A stretch of 64,000 nt of DNA from Cladochytrium replicatum (lineage: Eukaryota > Chytridiomycota > Chytridiomycetes > Cladochytriales > Cladochytriaceae), in the NCBI GenBank assembly GCA_025526935.1, contig JAHLKD010000114.1:1-64000 (forward strand), given 5' to 3'. Below, in pieces: positions 1-35,894 of this stretch (positions are counted from its first letter, which is position 1; each line of letters begins with the position of its first letter). The notes under the pieces are model-generated. The model was given only the letters and a program-made list of their open reading frames with translations, ran no database searches and had not been told where the DNA came from. Made by a program: the position numbers and the translations under genes.

Positions 1-112
1 ACCCTAACTAACCCTAACTAACCCTAACTAACCCTAACTAACCCTAACTAACCCTAACTAACCCTAACTAACCCTAACCCTAACTAACCCTAACTAACCC
101 TAACTAACCCTA
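1..112. repeat. Telomere repeat array (chromosome end)
   Basis: Near-perfect array of a 10-bp unit, ACCCTAACTA on this strand (TAGTTAGGGT on the G-rich strand). It can be read as canonical CCCTAA alternating with a shortened CTAA. One direct CCCTAACCCTAA junction occurs around 71-82, and the array ends at about 112 in unique DNA. The C-rich strand running 5'->3' inward from position 1 is the orientation expected at a left chromosome end. Most fungi have plain TTAGGG, so the alternating 6+4 pattern is unusual. Confidence 0.95.
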
Positions 113-1399
113 ATCCGGCTCAGAGAACTTTCAGAGCATACTAGTATAGCGGCTATGTCTTAATACCCGACCCCTACCGCCCTCCGTTAGGAGCAGCGTC
201 AAAGTTTCCCAGCATACAAGAGCATCTGCAACAAGCATACTGAGTGAGAACAAGCTGACCTTACAGTCAGGGCCCGGCTCTTCTCATAGTAGAAAAGGCC
301 AATTTTCGGTCCGAGTGGTCAGCCCAAATTTTGGGTCACCTCTCACTGGTTTTCCCACCAGGTAAATATAGGGCTGCACAGCCGCTGACGCGTTTCTACC
401 CCTTCCTGTCACCAAATGCTAGAGGAACACTAGAAATCGATGTCTCTACAAATCTGCTAGCAACATGGGCTAGAAAATGATAGAAAATGGGGCTCTGCCT
501 GGATGCTATAAGGTGCATCACTATAGAACTCCTAGCAAGTCTCATAGAGAATGGACCACTTTGTGCAATTTCCCAACCTTTGGGGCATCAATCCATCCCC
601 CAGACATCCTCTTTCCATCCTTCTAGACGTAACTAGAGGTTTTCCTAGACCCAAGCTTTGCTATTTTCATCAGCATCCCCCCCTATCCGTCCATGTTCAA
701 GCATCAGCACTTCAATGTCGCTGTTTTTCAGGCTAGAAGTTCACTAGCCCCAGCTTCAAGTGGCTTGGTGATGACAGGTGACCCCAGCATTCACAGAGGT
801 GATCCTAGAAATCCTCAATCCATCCATCAATCCACCTCCAATCCCTCTCTCTATCATCCTCTCTATCAATTTAGAGCAAAGTCTAGCACCAAAAGATAGA
901 GACTGGGCTATTGCAAAGGGTCTCCAGTGTTGCCCTTAGCACAAATGCTAGAAACTGCTAGGAGATCGCTTTTTTTGTCCAAAATCGCTTTGTCCTGTGC
1001 ACTCTCGCTGTCCAACGCATCTCCAAACGTTAAAAAACGCAAATATATGAAGAATGTAAATGTTTCCAACGTTTCCCCAGAGAGGCAAGGGAGTTCACTT
1101 GTCCAACAACCCCAGTTTCTAGCAAAAAGTGACCACCAGTGGACTTGCAGCTTCCCAGCTCAAGTTCTCCATTGTGCCTCTATAGATGGCCTCTAGGACA
1201 ACATGAGCACTAATTCATACGTGGAATTAAGTAATGCAATGCCCCAGAGGCCCGGGTAGCGCCTGTGGAACGCGTAGCACTCGAATATGTGCAAAGCGCA
1301 GACGCTTTCTTGCCAGAACGCTGTCAAAACGTGAGCCGGAGGTACCTAAACCTATCGTAACAAATAGATATACAACAGGACTATTCCGTGTGTGATGGA

Positions 1400-2396: not shown

Positions 2397-4134
2397 CTAA
2401 TCGTCACTTTCGCCGGGCGTTCCCATTGCTGTGTCGTCCTCTGCTGTTGGCTTCTCTGCCATCCAGAAGACACTTCTCCCACCGTAACTCGCAATATACT
2501 CCGTCCATTTGGTAAGACCGACAAGTCCGGCTCGTGTCCACGTTTTCTCCGCGGCGATCAAGAACTGCCTATAATCCTCGTGGTCGGTGTTCATTTGTTG
2601 AGTGACTTTCCCTCCTGGGACAAGTACCCTGTGCACTTCTGAGTAGAATTCGGGAGTGTACAGTACACGAGCTGCTTCAGCCGATGGATCCGTGCAATCG
2701 ATCACAATCAAGTCCGCTGAGTTCGATGGAAGAGTTTTGAGATGATCGGGGGCAGATGCATGATGCCATTCCACGCGGGGATCCTTAAAAGAATTCGAAG
2801 CTCCCGCAGGAGAGAAGAACTGCTGGGTAGTTTTCGAGACCAGTGGGTCGATGTCAACAATAGAGATTGTGAGATTGGGGAGGCGACTGGAGTAAGAGTC
2901 CAAAAGGTACGAAGCTATCCAGCCGTCACCCCCTCCAACCATTTGGACATGGAATGGCGTTTGTTGTTCCGAGGACGATATTGCAGCAGGAGCTGAATCG
3001 ATCACAGGTTGGAGGGCCGGGTCAACCATGTTTTTCGTATAGATGTGATTGTCCAACTCGCTGAATTGCACCACACTGCGAAAAGATTAGGTTAGTTATT
3101 ATGTTTCATCAGATACGACTGGTGCATACCGGTCGAGCAACATGCATCTACCCAAAGTTGCCGAATCCACCACCTCGATTCGTTGAAATTGCGAACGCTG
3201 ATCGAACAGCACAGTGGCATTCCTCAGCAAGTAGCAGTCATCATCGACATCGTCTCCGTTAACGCAGATATCAGCCAGTTTGTTCCCGAATACATCCTCG
3301 CCGCGAGGGAATGTAAGGTCGCGTGGGTCCGTAGAGCGTTCTGGGGGAGGAGCGGGAGGTAGAGGGGCAGCGGATGCCTGTTGGCTTGCGAAGACGGGTT
3401 CTGGAGAAAATAATTCAACACGAAGGTCGACAATGGGAAGACTAATACATACCATCAAGATCCTCGTCCTCATCGTCGTCGTCATCGTCGCCCTCGTCAA
3501 CAAGTTTCCCAAGTGGGAGCGGCCGCTTCCCTCTGATGGAATGCCTGTTGAGGCCTCGTTCGACCAGCGTTTTTCTCACGTTCTGTGGCTTCAAGAACCT
3601 CTCAAACATGTGCACAATCTTGGCAGGTTTACCAAGCCCGCAGGTATAGACGTCGATCGCAATAAACTGGTGTTCCGGCCACGAGTGTATCGAGACATGC
3701 GATTCGGAGAGGAGAAAGACGGCTGTCAGACCACCGCAATCGAAGCGATGAGCAGATGTTCCCAGCAGGGTCATTCCCGCGGCAGCAATTGCTGCTTTAA
3801 CTTTGGTGAAACTCGAGTCGTTCTCGAGCGAAGAGAGTGCATCTGAGTCAACCCCGAACATGTCCACTATGTAGTGTTGCCCTGTTGGTGGGTGAGTGCT
3901 GGTTGGGTCGTGCTTGCATTGCAGGGATAAATCTCTAGGGAGAGCATGATAGGTGAACGAGAAAGGAGTGCTCGACGAGAAAAACGAAAGGAAGATTAAA
4001 GCGTTGATAATTAGCAGAACGACGAGAAGGCGGGAGCGTCGTTGGAAGAACGGGAAGGCCGATCGTATTGAGACGGGAGTTGGCAGGCCTGTTGCTGACT
4101 TTGCGTACAGCGGAGGTGGTAGTTTGGAAAGCAT
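2397..4134 (-). CDS. Membrane-anchored fusion of bacterial-class AdoMet decarboxylase (SpeD) and spermidine synthase (SpeE)
   Basis: Model: complement(2397..3075, 3130..3400, 3453..4134), 543 aa, introns of 54 and 52 bp, phases consistent. Residues 1-60 hold a basic stretch and a hydrophobic segment at about 36-52, like a signal anchor. Residues 84-200 match prokaryotic class-1 SpeD: the pyruvoyl site LSESH (cleavage expected between Glu144 and Ser145), SIHSWPEH with His150, and AIDVYTCG with Cys165. An acidic linker (about 214-227) leads to a spermidine synthase domain with LDRVVQFSELDNHIY, VGGGDG (about 364-369), IVDIDP and IDCTDPS. Decarboxylated AdoMet made by the first half is the aminopropyl donor used by the second. 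Eukaryotic AdoMet decarboxylase belongs to a different class, so a bacterial origin of the SpeD half is inferred. The GP usually found after the DxxDP motif is absent (here SAEA), so substrate choice may differ from plain putrescine aminopropylation. The anchor would put the enzyme on a membrane, which is odd. The start is the first ATG before the hydrophobic segment. Confidence 0.88.
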
Positions 4135-4651: not shown

Positions 4652-7600
4652 ATGCCCAGTGAAGAGTATCTGTTGCTCCCTTTGTTTGATGAAATTCGTT
4701 TCATATCCGCTTCAACATCAGATACAGGCTCATCCCCATCACTTGACTTGTTGATTTCTACTTCCACCAATGGAAATGGTGTCAGGTTGCGGGAGTGGCT
4801 TGGAGAACCCAGACCAGGTCAGTGTTGGATCGGCGCAAAGGAGGCGAAATCACGGCATAGAACCTCGTCTATACCACCAGCTTTGCATCTGTTGGAGAGA
4901 AAGGGGATGGCGGCAGTTGGGAGACCTTCGGCTTCTGTCTCGATTGCCAATCTCGACGCTGTTTCCTTCCGAGACCTCTCTGAATGTGAGTACATCCCCA
5001 CTCTTGTCGCCGAACCTCACTTATACATAAGTTTTGCAGTTGACGATGTGCTCTGTGATATCCTGCTCGACTCACTGTTTTTGGGGTTTCGAACCCACAA
5101 AATGAACTTTGCACAGTGCATCAAATCCAGCGTTCCGCTCTCGCGCTCTGGATCTGACAGTGGAATGACCGCAAAAGAAGATGAGTTCTCATCCCGGGCA
5201 CCTGCCGATATGCGTGATTCGAATCAAGAAGGCACAACCCATCCCGCATCGAGTGAAGATAGTCAAACATATTCAGCTCATTCGACTCTTATTGAAGAAG
5301 ATTACCGAGAACTCTTAGGCTATGTAGTTCTCAAGATCATTCGCATTTTCGTTCTTAGTAAAAATGATGTCAACGCGGCAGCTGAGGTGCTTTATCAATA
5401 CCTGAGTTCTCCAATGGATATGCCGGCGTATGTATTGCGTGATACTGATTCCGTCCTTCTCACTATTTGACCAATTTTAGACAATGTACCGTTCAAAAGA
5501 ATCCATTTGCCATATTCCGAACTACGTTCAGCTCTCGGACGATCGAGCAGAGGGAGATTTTCAAAATGTACAGAAAGAACTACCCGCTCAATATTTTTCA
5601 AAAGCTGAATCATATTCCTTATGTTCTAGGCATTCCAAGTTGTACTTCTCGATGTATCATCGCAACGCTGGATATGAAATTGCTCGAACAGATCGCTACA
5701 AATGCACTGGAAAAGTTGAAGCGTGCCTGTTGGCAACCAAAAGTTGGAAGAGGGGGGACGAAATCAATCTTTGCTGTGGTTATATTGCAGAGTTAACGCC
5801 AGAGGAGGAACATCAGCTTGAACGACGCGACTTCAGTGTCATGTACTCCCAGAAACGTGGTCGGAATTGTTTATTCTTGGGTCCTGCACGATTTATTAAC
5901 CATGATTGCAACCCATCCTGCCATGTTAGTGGATTTCATCTTCTTCGCTTCAGCAACTTACATGTTGATGCATTTTACAGTTTAAGACGGACGGAAGCTT
6001 CAAAGTGAGCTTTAAGGTTATCAGAGACATAGATCCAGGTCAGGAAATCACTGCCTTCTACGGAAAAGACTATTTTGGGACCAATAACGAAGAATGCCTC
6101 TGCGAAACATGTGAAAGGTATGTATCATTCGCTCGCCTGTGATCAGTATATCTCATTATTACTTTAGGCTGGAGCAAAATGGCTTCCGAAAAGAGCACCC
6201 GAATTCGCCCGAGCAGTATGGACTACGCAGAGTCAGTGCACGACAAAAGAGATTCAACTACTTTGTTGATCCCTTGGTGGCGACCGGTTCTCCGGTTAAT
6301 GGTCAACGTCCACCAACTGACGGAAATCGTACGAACCCAAGGGCGGACGATTCTATAGAGTCTGAGTGCACCATGTGCAGAATTTCTGGGCAAGTTGAAT
6401 CATCTGGCCTTTGTGCGCGGTGCATACGCCATTGGAGAATATTCAGCACACGCTGGCCGGAAAGGAGAAAAGACGTTGACAATTTCAACCTCGATGGAAT
6501 GTCTGCCTCTCAAGTAAGTATAAGATTAAACCGGATTGTTATTGATGGATTTACCATGAAATTTAGATGATCGATGCTTTGGTTGAGCGGGCCGTACAAG
6601 AACAATCCCAGCCAATTCGGTTTCCTTCCCCAGTACCCCTCAGTCCGGCACGCGATATGCAAATCGATGACCTCTCGCATGATACAGATGATCCCTTTGA
6701 AGTTGAAGAGTTTCAGGTTGGACATGCTCTGGATGAGGGGCCATCTGCAAATCGAGCACTTCTGCATTCTCCACGGGCAAACGCAAATTCAGCCAGCCGT
6801 GCTTTTGGTCGCAGAGGAGAGGATGAAGAATGGACACCTGCCTCGAAACTTCGGCGCTCTGACGCCCCTCGAGGGCGTGGACGAGGACGCCCAAGCAAAC
6901 GTTCGTTGCTCGGACCAGAATTTGAAGAGACCATCGTTGGTGTCCAAGCGTGTAGCGTTATTGACGATCCCAACCTTGCTGCAACTCTGTCCTTCAATTT
7001 GGGTTGTCCATTCTGGTTGCTACCTCAGAACCTGATGGTTACGAAGCCGAAAGAAGTCGAACAGCCAATTGTGGAGAAGAACGGCCTTTCACTACAAACG
7101 TCACACAATTCTCCGAAGGCACTCGCACACACGAATGACCGCCATATTGCCGGATTCCGGAAGCAAAAAGTGTTTGATTGTAAGTATTTACACCGCAAAT
7201 GCATAGCACACAATAACTTTTCCCAGCAGTGATTCCAGACCACAACACTGCTACACGAAATTCGGGATTTCCAAAGCTCTCAAACATCCGTTCGAAATAT
7301 TACTCTAACCAACATTCGACCAAGAGAGCGCGCTTGGAATTTCCATCAGCTGACGTACCGAAGAATAAAAAAGCAAGGAAAAGTGGAGATTTTTCAAACT
7401 CATCCGCAGCGGATAATGTCAAGGCTGCAAAGGGAAGAAAAAGTGTTGGGGGCAAGTCATCCGATGTTCGGCCAAGAAGGAGTGTGTCTTCGTTACGATT
7501 GTTTAACTCAATACCCGGTGCTATACCAACTTGCCGTGAGTCGCAACCACTTTTATTTCTATTTTGTTTTCACTAAATTTTTCTTCTAGGTGACCACATT

Positions 7601-26465: not shown

Positions 26466-26865
26466 GATTGTGTTGAGCCGAACTGTGATTCTTCATTACT
26501 TCTAGCTAAAAGAGTGTTCGGAATTTCGTCAACATTGACAATATTGTCCGATTGTGTTGAGCCGAACTGTGATTCTTCATTACTTCTAGCTAAAAGAGTG
26601 TTCGGAATTTTGTCAACATTGACAATATTGTCCGATTGTTGTAATATTGTCCGATTGTGTTGAGCCGAACTGTGATTCTTCATTACTTCTAGCTAAAAGA
26701 GTGTTCGGAATTTTGTCAACATTGACAATATTGTCCGATTGTTGTAATATTGTCCGATTGTTGTAATATTGTCCGATTGTTGTAATATTGTCCGATTGTT
26801 GTAATATTGTCTGATTGTTGCAATATTGTCCGATTGTTGTAATATTGTCCGATTGTTGTGATCAA
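26466..26865. repeat. Compound minisatellite: 84-bp unit x3 and 19-bp unit x7
   Basis: Copies of an 84-bp unit begin at 26466, 26550 and 26653. A 19-bp unit (GATTGTTGTAATATTGTCC) sits once between copies 2 and 3 (26634) and then six times in a row from 26737 to 26850, with a partial seventh. The 19-bp unit is itself close to the end of the 84-bp unit, so it probably grew from it. Because 84 is a multiple of three, both strands carry long repetitive open frames that are not genes. Confidence 0.93.
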
Positions 26866-33690: not shown

Positions 33691-35894
33691 CGCGTTTACT
33701 TTCAAATGTTTCGTGGGGTATTGATAACGTGGTGGGATTCGAATATCAATAAAGACTATGTGAGAGATGCTTTAATCCGCAACAGCAGGTAAAGTTAGTT
33801 TCGGTTACATCAAGAAGTGGGTGTCATTGTACGTGATTACTGAAAGTACCAAAACCCACTTTGGAACATCACTGGCAGATTCGAGCTTTCGTTGAACGGT
33901 AAGGTGAAAACGAGTTTGTGAAGGCAAGGAACCCAGTTTCATTATGTCGCAGCACATATACTAACTAGTAAACATTTGCATGTGCACTTTGCAGATTGCT
34001 TAGGGTCAATGTGGTTTATCTGTCTGTCAGTGGTGACAACAGCTGTTCCGGTTGAATGGTTCAAGTTCAGTATCAATGAGCACTAAGTGAGATGTGTTAG
34101 TTGATTCCTTGAGCTAAAACCAGAAAACCAACTTTGCAGATTGCTTAGGGTCAATGTGGTTTATCTGTCTGTCAGTGGTGACAACAGCTGTTCCGGTTGA
34201 ATGGTTCAAGTTCAGTATCAATGAGCACTAAGTGAGATGTGTTAGTTGATTCCTTGAGCTAAAACCAGAAAACCAGGTAAGTCACTCTTAGGATTTTGTC
34301 GATTGTTGTCACTTACAATTTTCTGTTTGTTTTAATTCCACCTGCACCCTTTTGAAAAGATAGATTTTTGGTTAGATTTGTTGAGTGTGTATTTTCTTGC
34401 ACATACAAGGCCTTTATCATTGTGTTAAAGCAACGTTGAAGATTTCTGACCTCAAAAAATACACTGCTCTCATCAAACTTGTTATCTTCCAACATGCTGA
34501 AGTCTAGCTTTGTTGCCTGCAATATTTTGAGAAGATGTGAAGGTTTATCTCAATACATTTGGCTGTGTTCTCACCAAAACCATGTTGCGAGTCATTCTCT
34601 TCAATGGCCATTCTGCAAAAATGATTGTCAACAGTCCAGCCACTGACCAAATTACACAGCAAAGATGGAGACCTCCCTGAGTTTTTGATTCATTGATTTG
34701 AGCAGTAAACTAAGTCCTGGGTAAGGCCACAACAATCGCAAAATGATCTGTCGCAGAGATGTTCAACCTCATTGCAGCTGTTGCCCAGACTTCTCCATTA
34801 TCAGATTTGATTGGAAAATCATTAATGTAGTCGTCTGGAGCAATCTTAAAGCGAGTTGTGTTGAAGAAGGGAAGCTTTGATATTCCACCCCCATAGCGGG
34901 CTTTGATCCCAAGGTCAGCAATGATAGGATTTCAGCCTTATCAACAAACCAGTAAAGTCACTGTTGATTATGCTAATATTGACATTGACAAGGCCAATCT
35001 TTTGCTCTTGCACCATTAGAAACATTCTGCTGACACCCCAATGGAGAAGACTTTATAAGAATCTAACGTTTTGTTCAGCTTATATTTGACAAAACAGGCA
35101 GACAGAAAGGAACTCAAGTTTTGGCTTTAGAAGAGAAACGGTAAGCAGTGCATGTAATTGGATACGATGTGAAATTTGAAAATAGTCGTTCCCCGGAAGT
35201 ATTCGCCGTTTGGTATCGCGGTGGGGATTATGACTCGCCAATCCCTCCACGGTTAATTCGCCAACATTCGTTCGAGAGAGATTTGTCTGCACCGACATTG
35301 ATGTTGTTGGTAAACTGAAGGGGCAGTTAACCTGTTTAAATATCCGTGGTTTAAGTTCAAGGGGATGTGATCTGTTCATCACCTTTGTTTACAACGTCGA
35401 TCGAGATCGAGGTAGAGGGACAGTGGCAAACCTTTGTTCGTATATACTATCTATTTTAAAACAGCTTGTTTTCACTGAAAGAGCCCAGGCCTCCGTTCTA
35501 AACAGTCCAGTCCTTTTTTCTACGACCGATCAACTGGTGGACCTATTCTTTGAATAATCAAGGAAACTGGTTTTGAATCCCCATTAATCAGATATTTTTA
35601 GCGGCAACCGGGAGCATGACAGTGCGCTGTGATCTTGTAAAATAAGAGATAGGGAGGTTGGCAGGCCCACACGCTTCATAACATATCCTAGTGTTTATTA
35701 CCTGGAACTTGATGCCCCGAGAAGGGCACGTATTCATCGGCTTGATGTGACTTTTATTGGTATTCATGAGGTGCAACAAGTTGAAGCTCACACATTGAAT
35801 GAACGCAGAAGTAAAAAAAGCAGATCAGAAGGAGCGTTGAGAAAGCTCCGATCAAACACTTCCAACAAGCTAATTAGGGGCAAGTTAATGGACG
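33691..35894. other. 2.2-kb region of repeats and unrecognised DNA
   Basis: No credible gene. It contains a 145-bp tandem duplication (33986-34275) and AT-rich DNA with short minus-strand frames (34313-34522, 35080-35382) that show no motifs. It resembles decayed mobile-element DNA but no family can be named. Confidence 0.5.
33986..34275. repeat. 145-bp perfect or near-perfect tandem duplication
   Basis: The segment beginning ACTTTGCAGATTGCTTAGGG at 33986 is repeated from 34131 and both copies end in CCAGAAAACCA. I see no difference between the copies by eye, which points to a very recent duplication or an assembly artefact. Confidence 0.93.

Follow-up and report, generated by a model that had tools for sequence, protein, structure and literature searches.

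Proteins in which a bacterial-type S-adenosylmethionine (AdoMet) decarboxylase (AdoMetDC, SpeD) is joined to an aminopropyltransferase (APT) are the closest described systems to the gene considered here. It lies on the minus strand at positions 2397-4134 of a 64,000-nucleotide stretch (the window; positions 1 to 64,000 of contig JAHLKD010000114.1, here C114) of the chytrid Cladochytrium replicatum, and encodes a SpeD domain followed by an APT domain. Two fusions of AdoMetDC with spermine synthase (SpmSyn), MBW2649524 from a delta-proteobacterium (358 residues) and MCK4773364 from Candidatus Krumholzibacteria (376 residues), were expressed and were active both as AdoMet decarboxylases and as spermine synthases; such fusions are regarded as related to what was probably the source of animal spermine synthase, in which the SpeD half has lost its AdoMetDC function (PMC12803844, part available). 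Fusions of AdoMetDC with spermidine, spermine or thermospermine synthases are described from Candidatus Pelagibacter, with both activities reported (PMC11107197, part available).

Among fungi, a spermidine synthase-saccharopine reductase fusion is described from basidiomycetes (PMC10051792, in the portion available) and a membrane protein-APT-like protein from P. oryzae (PMC12803844, likewise); both carry a fused APT-like domain, but no SpeD half is described for either. In five chytridiomycetes spermidine synthase and saccharopine reductase are separate according to the accessible text of PMC10051792, in which the terms S-adenosylmethionine decarboxylase, AdoMetDC and SAMDC do not occur. Two fungal spermine synthases had been reported earlier, from yeast and P. 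oryzae, the second of which was doubted, and budding-yeast ones have since been added; the section on fungal spermine synthases, in its available form, names no fungal SpeD fusion (PMC12803844). In two algae, SpeD homologs encoded by genes with introns belong to an arginine decarboxylase clade (PMC10407285, part available). No fungal SpeD-APT fusion was found in searches of the open-licence literature, outside of which lie preprints and most subscription papers, and this is weak evidence of absence; as far as these searches reach, the AdoMetDC-APT fusion of C. replicatum is the first noted in fungi.

The fungal protein shares domain order and SpeD signature with the bacterial AdoMetDC-SpmSyn fusions, and with those of Candidatus Pelagibacter, which are bacterial and are likened here by description, the joining of a class 1b AdoMetDC to an APT. 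Like animal spermine synthase, it has a SpeD-like half first, an APT of truncated type second and a eukaryotic host. Whereas the animal SpeD half is dead (available part of PMC12803844), the SpeD residues of the fungal protein are intact, and the direct sequence match between the two is weak (E 0.23). We hold, at a probability of roughly 0.55, that the gene encodes a bifunctional AdoMetDC-APT fusion enzyme, the APT half of which is of the spermine-synthase type and not an ordinary spermidine synthase.

Gene structure, SpeD half and paralog

The gene has three exons, spliced by frame into a single protein of 543 residues, with the following features.

3453..4134, minus strand: exon 1, with the N-terminal region, the candidate membrane segment, the SpeD domain and the start of the acidic linker (spliced frame)
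3973..4029, minus strand: hydrophobic segment LLVVLLIINALIFLSFFSS, residues 36-54, candidate membrane anchor (Kyte-Doolittle)
3553..3876, minus strand: class 1b AdoMet decarboxylase (SpeD) domain, residues 87-194 (PF02675, TIGR03330)
3700..3702, minus strand: Ser145, predicted self-cleavage and pyruvoyl serine, S63 of T. maritima SpeD (invariant column in alignments A1 and A4)
3685..3687, minus strand: His150, equivalent of H68 (invariant column in A1 and A4)
3640..3642, minus strand: Cys165, equivalent of C83 (invariant column in A1 and A4)
3401..3452, minus strand: intron 1, 52 bases, GTATGT...CCAG, inside the acidic linker (GT...AG, frame)
3130..3400, minus strand: exon 2, with linker and N-terminal part of the APT domain (spliced frame)
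2448..3236, minus strand: APT domain, about residues 283-527, split by intron 2 (PF17284 and PF01564)
3076..3129, minus strand: intron 2, 54 bases, GTATGC...GCAG, absent from the paralog (GT...AG; paralog reads through)
2400..3075, minus strand: exon 3, with the main part of the APT domain and an acidic C-terminus (spliced frame)
2697..2699, minus strand: Asp444 of DCTDP, kept (Asp in 76/76 other APT rows, in three bacterial SpmSyn-type fusions and in PDB 3c6k, which we take to be human spermine synthase)
2397..2399, minus strand: stop codon (spliced frame)

Asp444 presumably occupies the position of the catalytic Asp of aminopropyltransferases. In the Pfam scan of the spliced protein, AdoMet_dc (PF02675) matched residues 87-194 with E 2.3e-26 (3.9e-26 in the genome profile search), Spermine_synth matched residues 355-524 with E 1.4e-14, and Spermine_synt_N was found with E 4.1e-8. 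The linker between the two domains carries an Asp/Glu run. Residues 36-54 have a 19-residue Kyte-Doolittle mean of 2.58, with an Arg-rich stretch just before.

The motifs LSESH, SIHSWPEH and AIDVYTCG are all present in the SpeD half, and the curated equivalog model TIGR03330 (B. subtilis-type AdoMet decarboxylase; cut-off 75.65) gave 94.1 bits for the window copy and 99.4 for its paralog. The eukaryotic, class 2 family PF01536 had no row for the fusion protein in the Pfam scan, and no match on C114 or on the paralog's contig, C64, in the genome scan. The columns of S145, H150, C165 and P153 are invariant in A1 and A4, and S145, H150 and C165 have the spacing of S63, H68 and C83 of T. maritima SpeD, residues with roles in processing and catalysis (PMC10407285, part available). 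The same source, as far as available, gives the Pro of WPE as separating AdoMet decarboxylase from arginine-decarboxylating homologs; this Pro is present in the fungal SpeD half (P153).

A search of the genome (50.5 Mb, 198 contigs) with PF02675 found two places, the window gene and C64:211243-211566. The C64 paralog has 557 residues, the same layout and 71% identity to the window protein (alignment A1), with a hydrophobic segment at residues 39-57 (Kyte-Doolittle mean 2.14). Its single intron, of 67 bases, lies in the acidic linker, and there is none at the intron 2 site of the window gene; because the paralog reads straight through that site (CMLLDRVVQF), the splice of intron 2 is independently supported. 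The open frame and this paralog are the grounds for reading the window gene as one mRNA. By Nei-Gojobori counts the pair has a pS of 0.77, which is saturated, and a pN of 0.195. The two N-terminal regions are 44% identical, the SpeD domains 73%, the linkers 69% and the APT halves 81%. With synonymous sites saturated and both domains kept to this degree, both halves have therefore been under long-standing purifying selection, which, judging from these identities, is strongest on the APT half.

Within the genome PF08407 (chitin synthase N-terminal domain), which we take as a fungal mark, was matched at 7 places, and the flagellar radial spoke family PF04712, presumably a mark of flagella, with E 2.9e-47; neither matched in 14 control genomes, all of them prokaryotes. 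The genome looks like that of a zoosporic fungus. A sequence-only reading of this stretch had described a bacterial-class SpeD fused to spermidine synthase in an intron-containing fungal gene. Its coordinates, strand, two introns and three SpeD motifs are borne out by the spliced frame, the prokaryotic class of the SpeD half by TIGR03330 and the unmatched PF01536, and the location in an intron-bearing nuclear gene of what looks like a fungus by the introns, PF08407 and PF04712. The candidate membrane segment goes beyond that description.

Relatives of the fusion and placement of its halves

No close bacterial donor appeared in the GTDB scan, the best whole-fusion match having 28% identity (best 80 of 589). 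Loci fetched from the early scans held 21 frames with both SpeD and APT (8 cyanobacterial, 8 from Bacteroidota, 5 others). These have the domain order of the fungal fusion, but where the end is present they carry the full APT tail and Y-H-E, and those retained in the trees group with ordinary bacterial enzymes. A 45-genome phylum sample around a match titled Deltaproteobacteria, searched with the fungal query, yielded L216, a 362-residue open frame carrying SpeD and APT, and also L217 and L218, whose APT part is short, decayed-looking and devoid of GGGDG; these two were excluded from the APT trees and the character count. Two further fusions, L220 and L221, came from a 295-genome sample around a Thermodesulfovibrionia match, with L216 as query. 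Both samples thus held SpmSyn-type fusions but no close donor. We infer that L216, L220 and L221 are of the kind of MBW2649524 and MCK4773364 from their size, their layout and, for L216 and L221, their match to 3c6k (E 2e-16 and 9e-24, respectively; both match some spermidine synthases better). In all three, as in the fungal protein, the C-terminal tail is missing and there is no Y-H/Q-E motif. The fungal proteins differ from the bacterial AdoMetDC-SpmSyn fusions in the candidate membrane segment, the acidic linker, the introns, a Ser at the adenine-site Asp and the DCTDP motif, and the likeness is low.

Viral, phage and plasmid sources were considered and rejected on the records scanned. Viral contigs gave 594 confirmed stretches; of the best 80, 79 match SpeD alone and a single one, L133, extends over both parts, and a viral scan for the APT pair with two narrow patterns confirmed 0 of 13 stretches. 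None of 129 phage records and none of 40 plasmid records covered 80% of the query; the 40 phage records listed match SpeD or SpeE, never both.

The APT tree separated the fungal pair, L216, L220, L221 and 3c6k from 49 other APTs with support of 95/72 (27/82 rows, near-copies and long ones, left out), and in a larger set without 3c6k the pair stood with the SpmSyn-type fusions at 88/67 (5 long rows of 80 left out). One APT step used rows of at least 30 bits. In the 95/72 tree the fungus's own spermidine synthase was placed beside a Lentisphaerae row and well away from the fungal pair, and constraining the pair to join it was rejected by the approximately unbiased (AU) test (p-AU 0.0067, the own enzyme being one hand-joined row); a constraint with 3c6k alone was not rejected (p-AU 0.087). 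The first APT tree, which had no SpmSyn-type rows, left the pair on a branch of 3.85 and without a supported place. On these trees the APT half appears to group, with moderate support, with the bacterial AdoMetDC-SpmSyn-type fusions and 3c6k.

Since long branches affect the APT trees, plain characters were examined as well, in 76 other rows, which include near-copies and so do not represent 76 independent cases; two are cut off at the end. The tail after P-[ST]-[YF] has 50-84 residues in all 74 rows having an end. In the two fungal copies, where it is rich in acidic residues, it measures 28 and 35; in L216, L220 and L221 it measures 12, and in 3c6k, a fragment lacking the last 7 residues of the chain, 8. 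The motif Y[HQS][ED] is found in 76/76 other rows; the fungal pair has YTK/YTR at this position, the SpmSyn-type rows YSQ, YDA and YSW, and 3c6k YTR. A SpeD-APT order in which the APT has neither the tail nor Y-H/Q-E is common to the fungal pair, the three bacterial SpmSyn-type rows and the 3c6k fragment. Both characters agree with the APT tree. The catalytic Asp, Gln, Tyr and GGGDG are kept in the fungal APT, the roles of the compared residues (adenine-site Asp, catalytic Asp) being assumed here. The curated speE cut-off (TIGR00417, 249.55) was missed by the window copy (79.6 bits) and by the paralog (84.6).

The SpeD half was less readily placed. Its best relative among the rows compared is a stand-alone SpeD of Hydrogenothermaceae (L061; 91.0 bits, 41% identity in the scan), and both SpeD trees, of about 120 columns, leave it without a supported place. 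The first tree took SpeD rows of at least 45 bits and 10/80 viral loci; the second left out 34/101 rows (11 long, 23 near-copies) and included L217.

Several results weigh against the spermine-synthase type and the kinship with SpmSyn-type fusions. When five long odd rows (L039, L031, L058, L085 and L027) and the APT of the neighbouring gene N1, described below, were added, the SH-aLRT value of the APT grouping dropped to 60, and the APT stem branch of the fungal pair measures 2.4-3.9 changes per column. The profile search of the APT half against PDB gave spermidine synthase 3o4f as best (2.4e-18), with 3c6k not significant. At the adenine site both fungal copies carry Ser, where 75 of the 76 other rows have D, the remaining one has E, and the SpmSyn-type rows have D; the fungal DCTDP is spermidine-synthase-like, as against DLSMH, DLTMH or DLTAV of the SpmSyn type. 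The best fused SpeD, L046, reaches 70.8 bits against the fungal SpeD half, and the SpmSyn-type SpeDs are outside its 60 best rows, all below 63.7 bits. In the SpeD tree the fungal half is not grouped with them, one clade of the two being not rejected (p 0.177).

Proposed mechanism and competing explanations

As a bifunctional enzyme, the protein would cleave itself in the SpeD half before Ser145, as class 1b enzymes do. The beta chain, residues 1-144 (roughly 16 kDa), would hold the membrane segment, and the alpha chain, residues 145-543 (roughly 44 kDa), would begin with the pyruvoyl group and carry the APT domain; the two would be joined only through the SpeD fold, with membrane segment and APT on separate chains. 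The pyruvoyl group would decarboxylate AdoMet, and the tethered APT would use the product as aminopropyl donor to a polyamine, with spermidine or putrescine the likeliest acceptor, giving spermine or spermidine. Both activities, the substrate, the membrane location, channelling and a horizontal origin from a bacterial fusion are what we infer from sequence comparison. Transfer by the APT half is probable, because the catalytic Asp, Gln, Tyr and GGGDG are kept, and because the adenine Asp is lost, a non-catalytic APT is the main functional rival.

Under that rival, which we regard as possible but rather unlikely, the decarboxylase would be active and the APT would be a non-transferring dimer or regulatory scaffold, a mirror image of animal spermine synthase. 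The Ser in place of the adenine-site Asp in both copies, the missing tail and Y-H/Q-E motif and the missed speE cut-off all suit it, as does the divergent APT-SpeD-SET protein described below, in which both active sites are seemingly lost and which suggests that non-catalytic relatives are kept in this genome. However, no part of the protein is more conserved than the APT half, with 81% identity at saturated synonymous sites, and this half retains the catalytic residues named above. The tail and motif are likewise gone in 3c6k and in relatives of the fusions reported active (PMC12803844, part available).

Another doubtful, though not negligible, alternative concerns origin: a stand-alone bacterial or archaeal SpeD could have been joined to a separately acquired, fast-evolving APT, the likeness to SpmSyn being convergence or long-branch attraction. 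The SpeD half is indeed nearer to a stand-alone SpeD (L061) than to fused or SpmSyn-type ones and does not join the latter in the tree, and the long APT stem and the fall in support with more long rows point the same way. Against this stand the domain order and the missing tail and motif, all as in SpmSyn-type fusions, the APT grouping at 95/72, and the unrejected single clade of fungal and SpmSyn-type SpeDs.

Improbable by comparison is a change of the SpeD half to pyruvoyl-dependent decarboxylation of ornithine or arginine, of the sort known from certain bacteria and archaea and from the two algae. Such shifts are widespread, and the intron-bearing algal homologs fall in the arginine decarboxylase clade (PMC10407285, part available), but the fungal protein has the WPE proline and scores above the TIGR03330 cut-off. 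Still less probable is a bacterial SpeD joined to the fungus's own spermidine synthase: ordinary spermidine synthases head the PDB matches of the APT half, but the AU test rejects the grouping (with the one hand-joined row), the own copy lies far off with the Lentisphaerae row, and the fungal APT has neither tail nor motif. Bacterial contamination or an assembly artefact, for which no point in favour was found, can practically be dismissed in view of the two spliceosomal-type introns, the one-intron paralog on another contig, the telomere-like array at the contig end and a SET-domain neighbour with its frame broken up as by introns.

Host enzymes, neighbouring genes and meaning

PF01536 has six matches in the genome, five on contig C7 and one on C72. 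Those on C7 together span profile positions 2-343 piecewise in the unspliced sequence, one of them with internal stops, possibly an intron. The C72 match (L019, G000:C72:174500-178500) is weaker and contains stops, and is perhaps a decayed copy. Two ordinary spermidine synthases were found by the genome profile search, on C35 (E 1.4e-48) and C59 (E 1.4e-47), and these two genes are closely similar. Since matches to both ordinary enzymes remain in the genome, the fusion would be an addition to them and not a stand-in. Duplicate pairs were met four times: the fusion, SET-type genes, the ordinary spermidine synthases and the AdoMet decarboxylase places.

The interpretation given in the sequence-only reading is in part supported by these results, its observation being confirmed. 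The second half, which it took for a spermidine synthase, is not an ordinary one and stands, with moderate support, beside SpmSyn-type fusions, a grouping with the own copy being rejected. A transferred whole pathway replacing the ordinary one does not agree with the host's retained enzymes. A bacterial donor is plausible; no close donor appeared among the GTDB matches, and the SpeD trees give no placement. The eukaryotic-class AdoMet decarboxylase that it proposed to look for exists as a separate gene on C7, and of the trees it suggested for each half, those of the APT gave a moderately supported grouping and those of SpeD no placement.

Divergent from the C64 fusion, about 640 bases away, lies gene N1 (L017:5971-8953; G000:C64:212470-215449), with a hydrophobic N-terminus, a degenerate APT, an acidic stretch, a degenerate SpeD and a SET domain. 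By hhalign the APT-like region matches the bacterial APT set with probability 99.0 (E 6.4e-18) and the SpeD-like region has probability 76.7 (E 2.1e-5); in these alignments GFPEG replaces GGGDG and the SpeD processing residues are gone. The SET domain (E 0.0021, 18.9 bits) is under the Pfam cut-off of 22.4. A second copy, at L205:4600-7545 (G000:C102:156099-159044), has a seeming frame break between SpeD-like pieces. In the tree the N1 APT stands apart from that of the fungal fusion, in a 26-row part (97 SH-aLRT) that includes rows labelled thermospermine-synthase-like by resemblance, and has no closer supported place. N1 and its C102 copy are probably pseudoenzymes with a SET domain attached; no description of an N1-type protein was found in the literature searched.

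The window fusion gene also has a divergent neighbour, at window 4616 to about 6570, made up of several open pieces, one of which (5481-6008) contains a SET domain (PF00856, 1.7e-5). It seems to resemble the SUV4-20/Set9 methyltransferases. Kinship with the SET protein of C64 was considered and rejected, the family scan having found only the C64 and C102 genes. The 3' end of the fusion gene is 2.3 kb from an array at window 1-113, at the contig start, of a 10-base unit ACCCTAACTA and a shorter variant, which is telomere-like with an unusual unit; a literature search for the unit TTAGTTAGGG gave only papers on unrelated subjects. Beside the C64 fusion lies a 580-residue open frame (L017:1138-2877) with many repeats of the type DWAS.NGH..VLDWW. 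Tandem repeats with units of 103/19 and of 145 bases, matching at 96-100%, occupy window 26540-26859 and 33986-34275.

It is conceivable, though unlikely, that the fusion of the fungus and the spermine synthase of animals both descend from one AdoMetDC-SpmSyn fusion acquired by an early opisthokont, of which the fungus would keep a working, membrane-anchored form and animals a dead half as dimer scaffold. If the bifunctional reading of the fungal gene is true, a eukaryotic fusion with an intact decarboxylase half would offer a living comparison for the loss of the SpeD half in animals (PMC12803844, part available), and it would add a fungal route to tetraamines beside that of budding yeasts. 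Given the candidate membrane anchor, one may ask why a cell that has the ordinary enzymes would keep a second, tethered pair.

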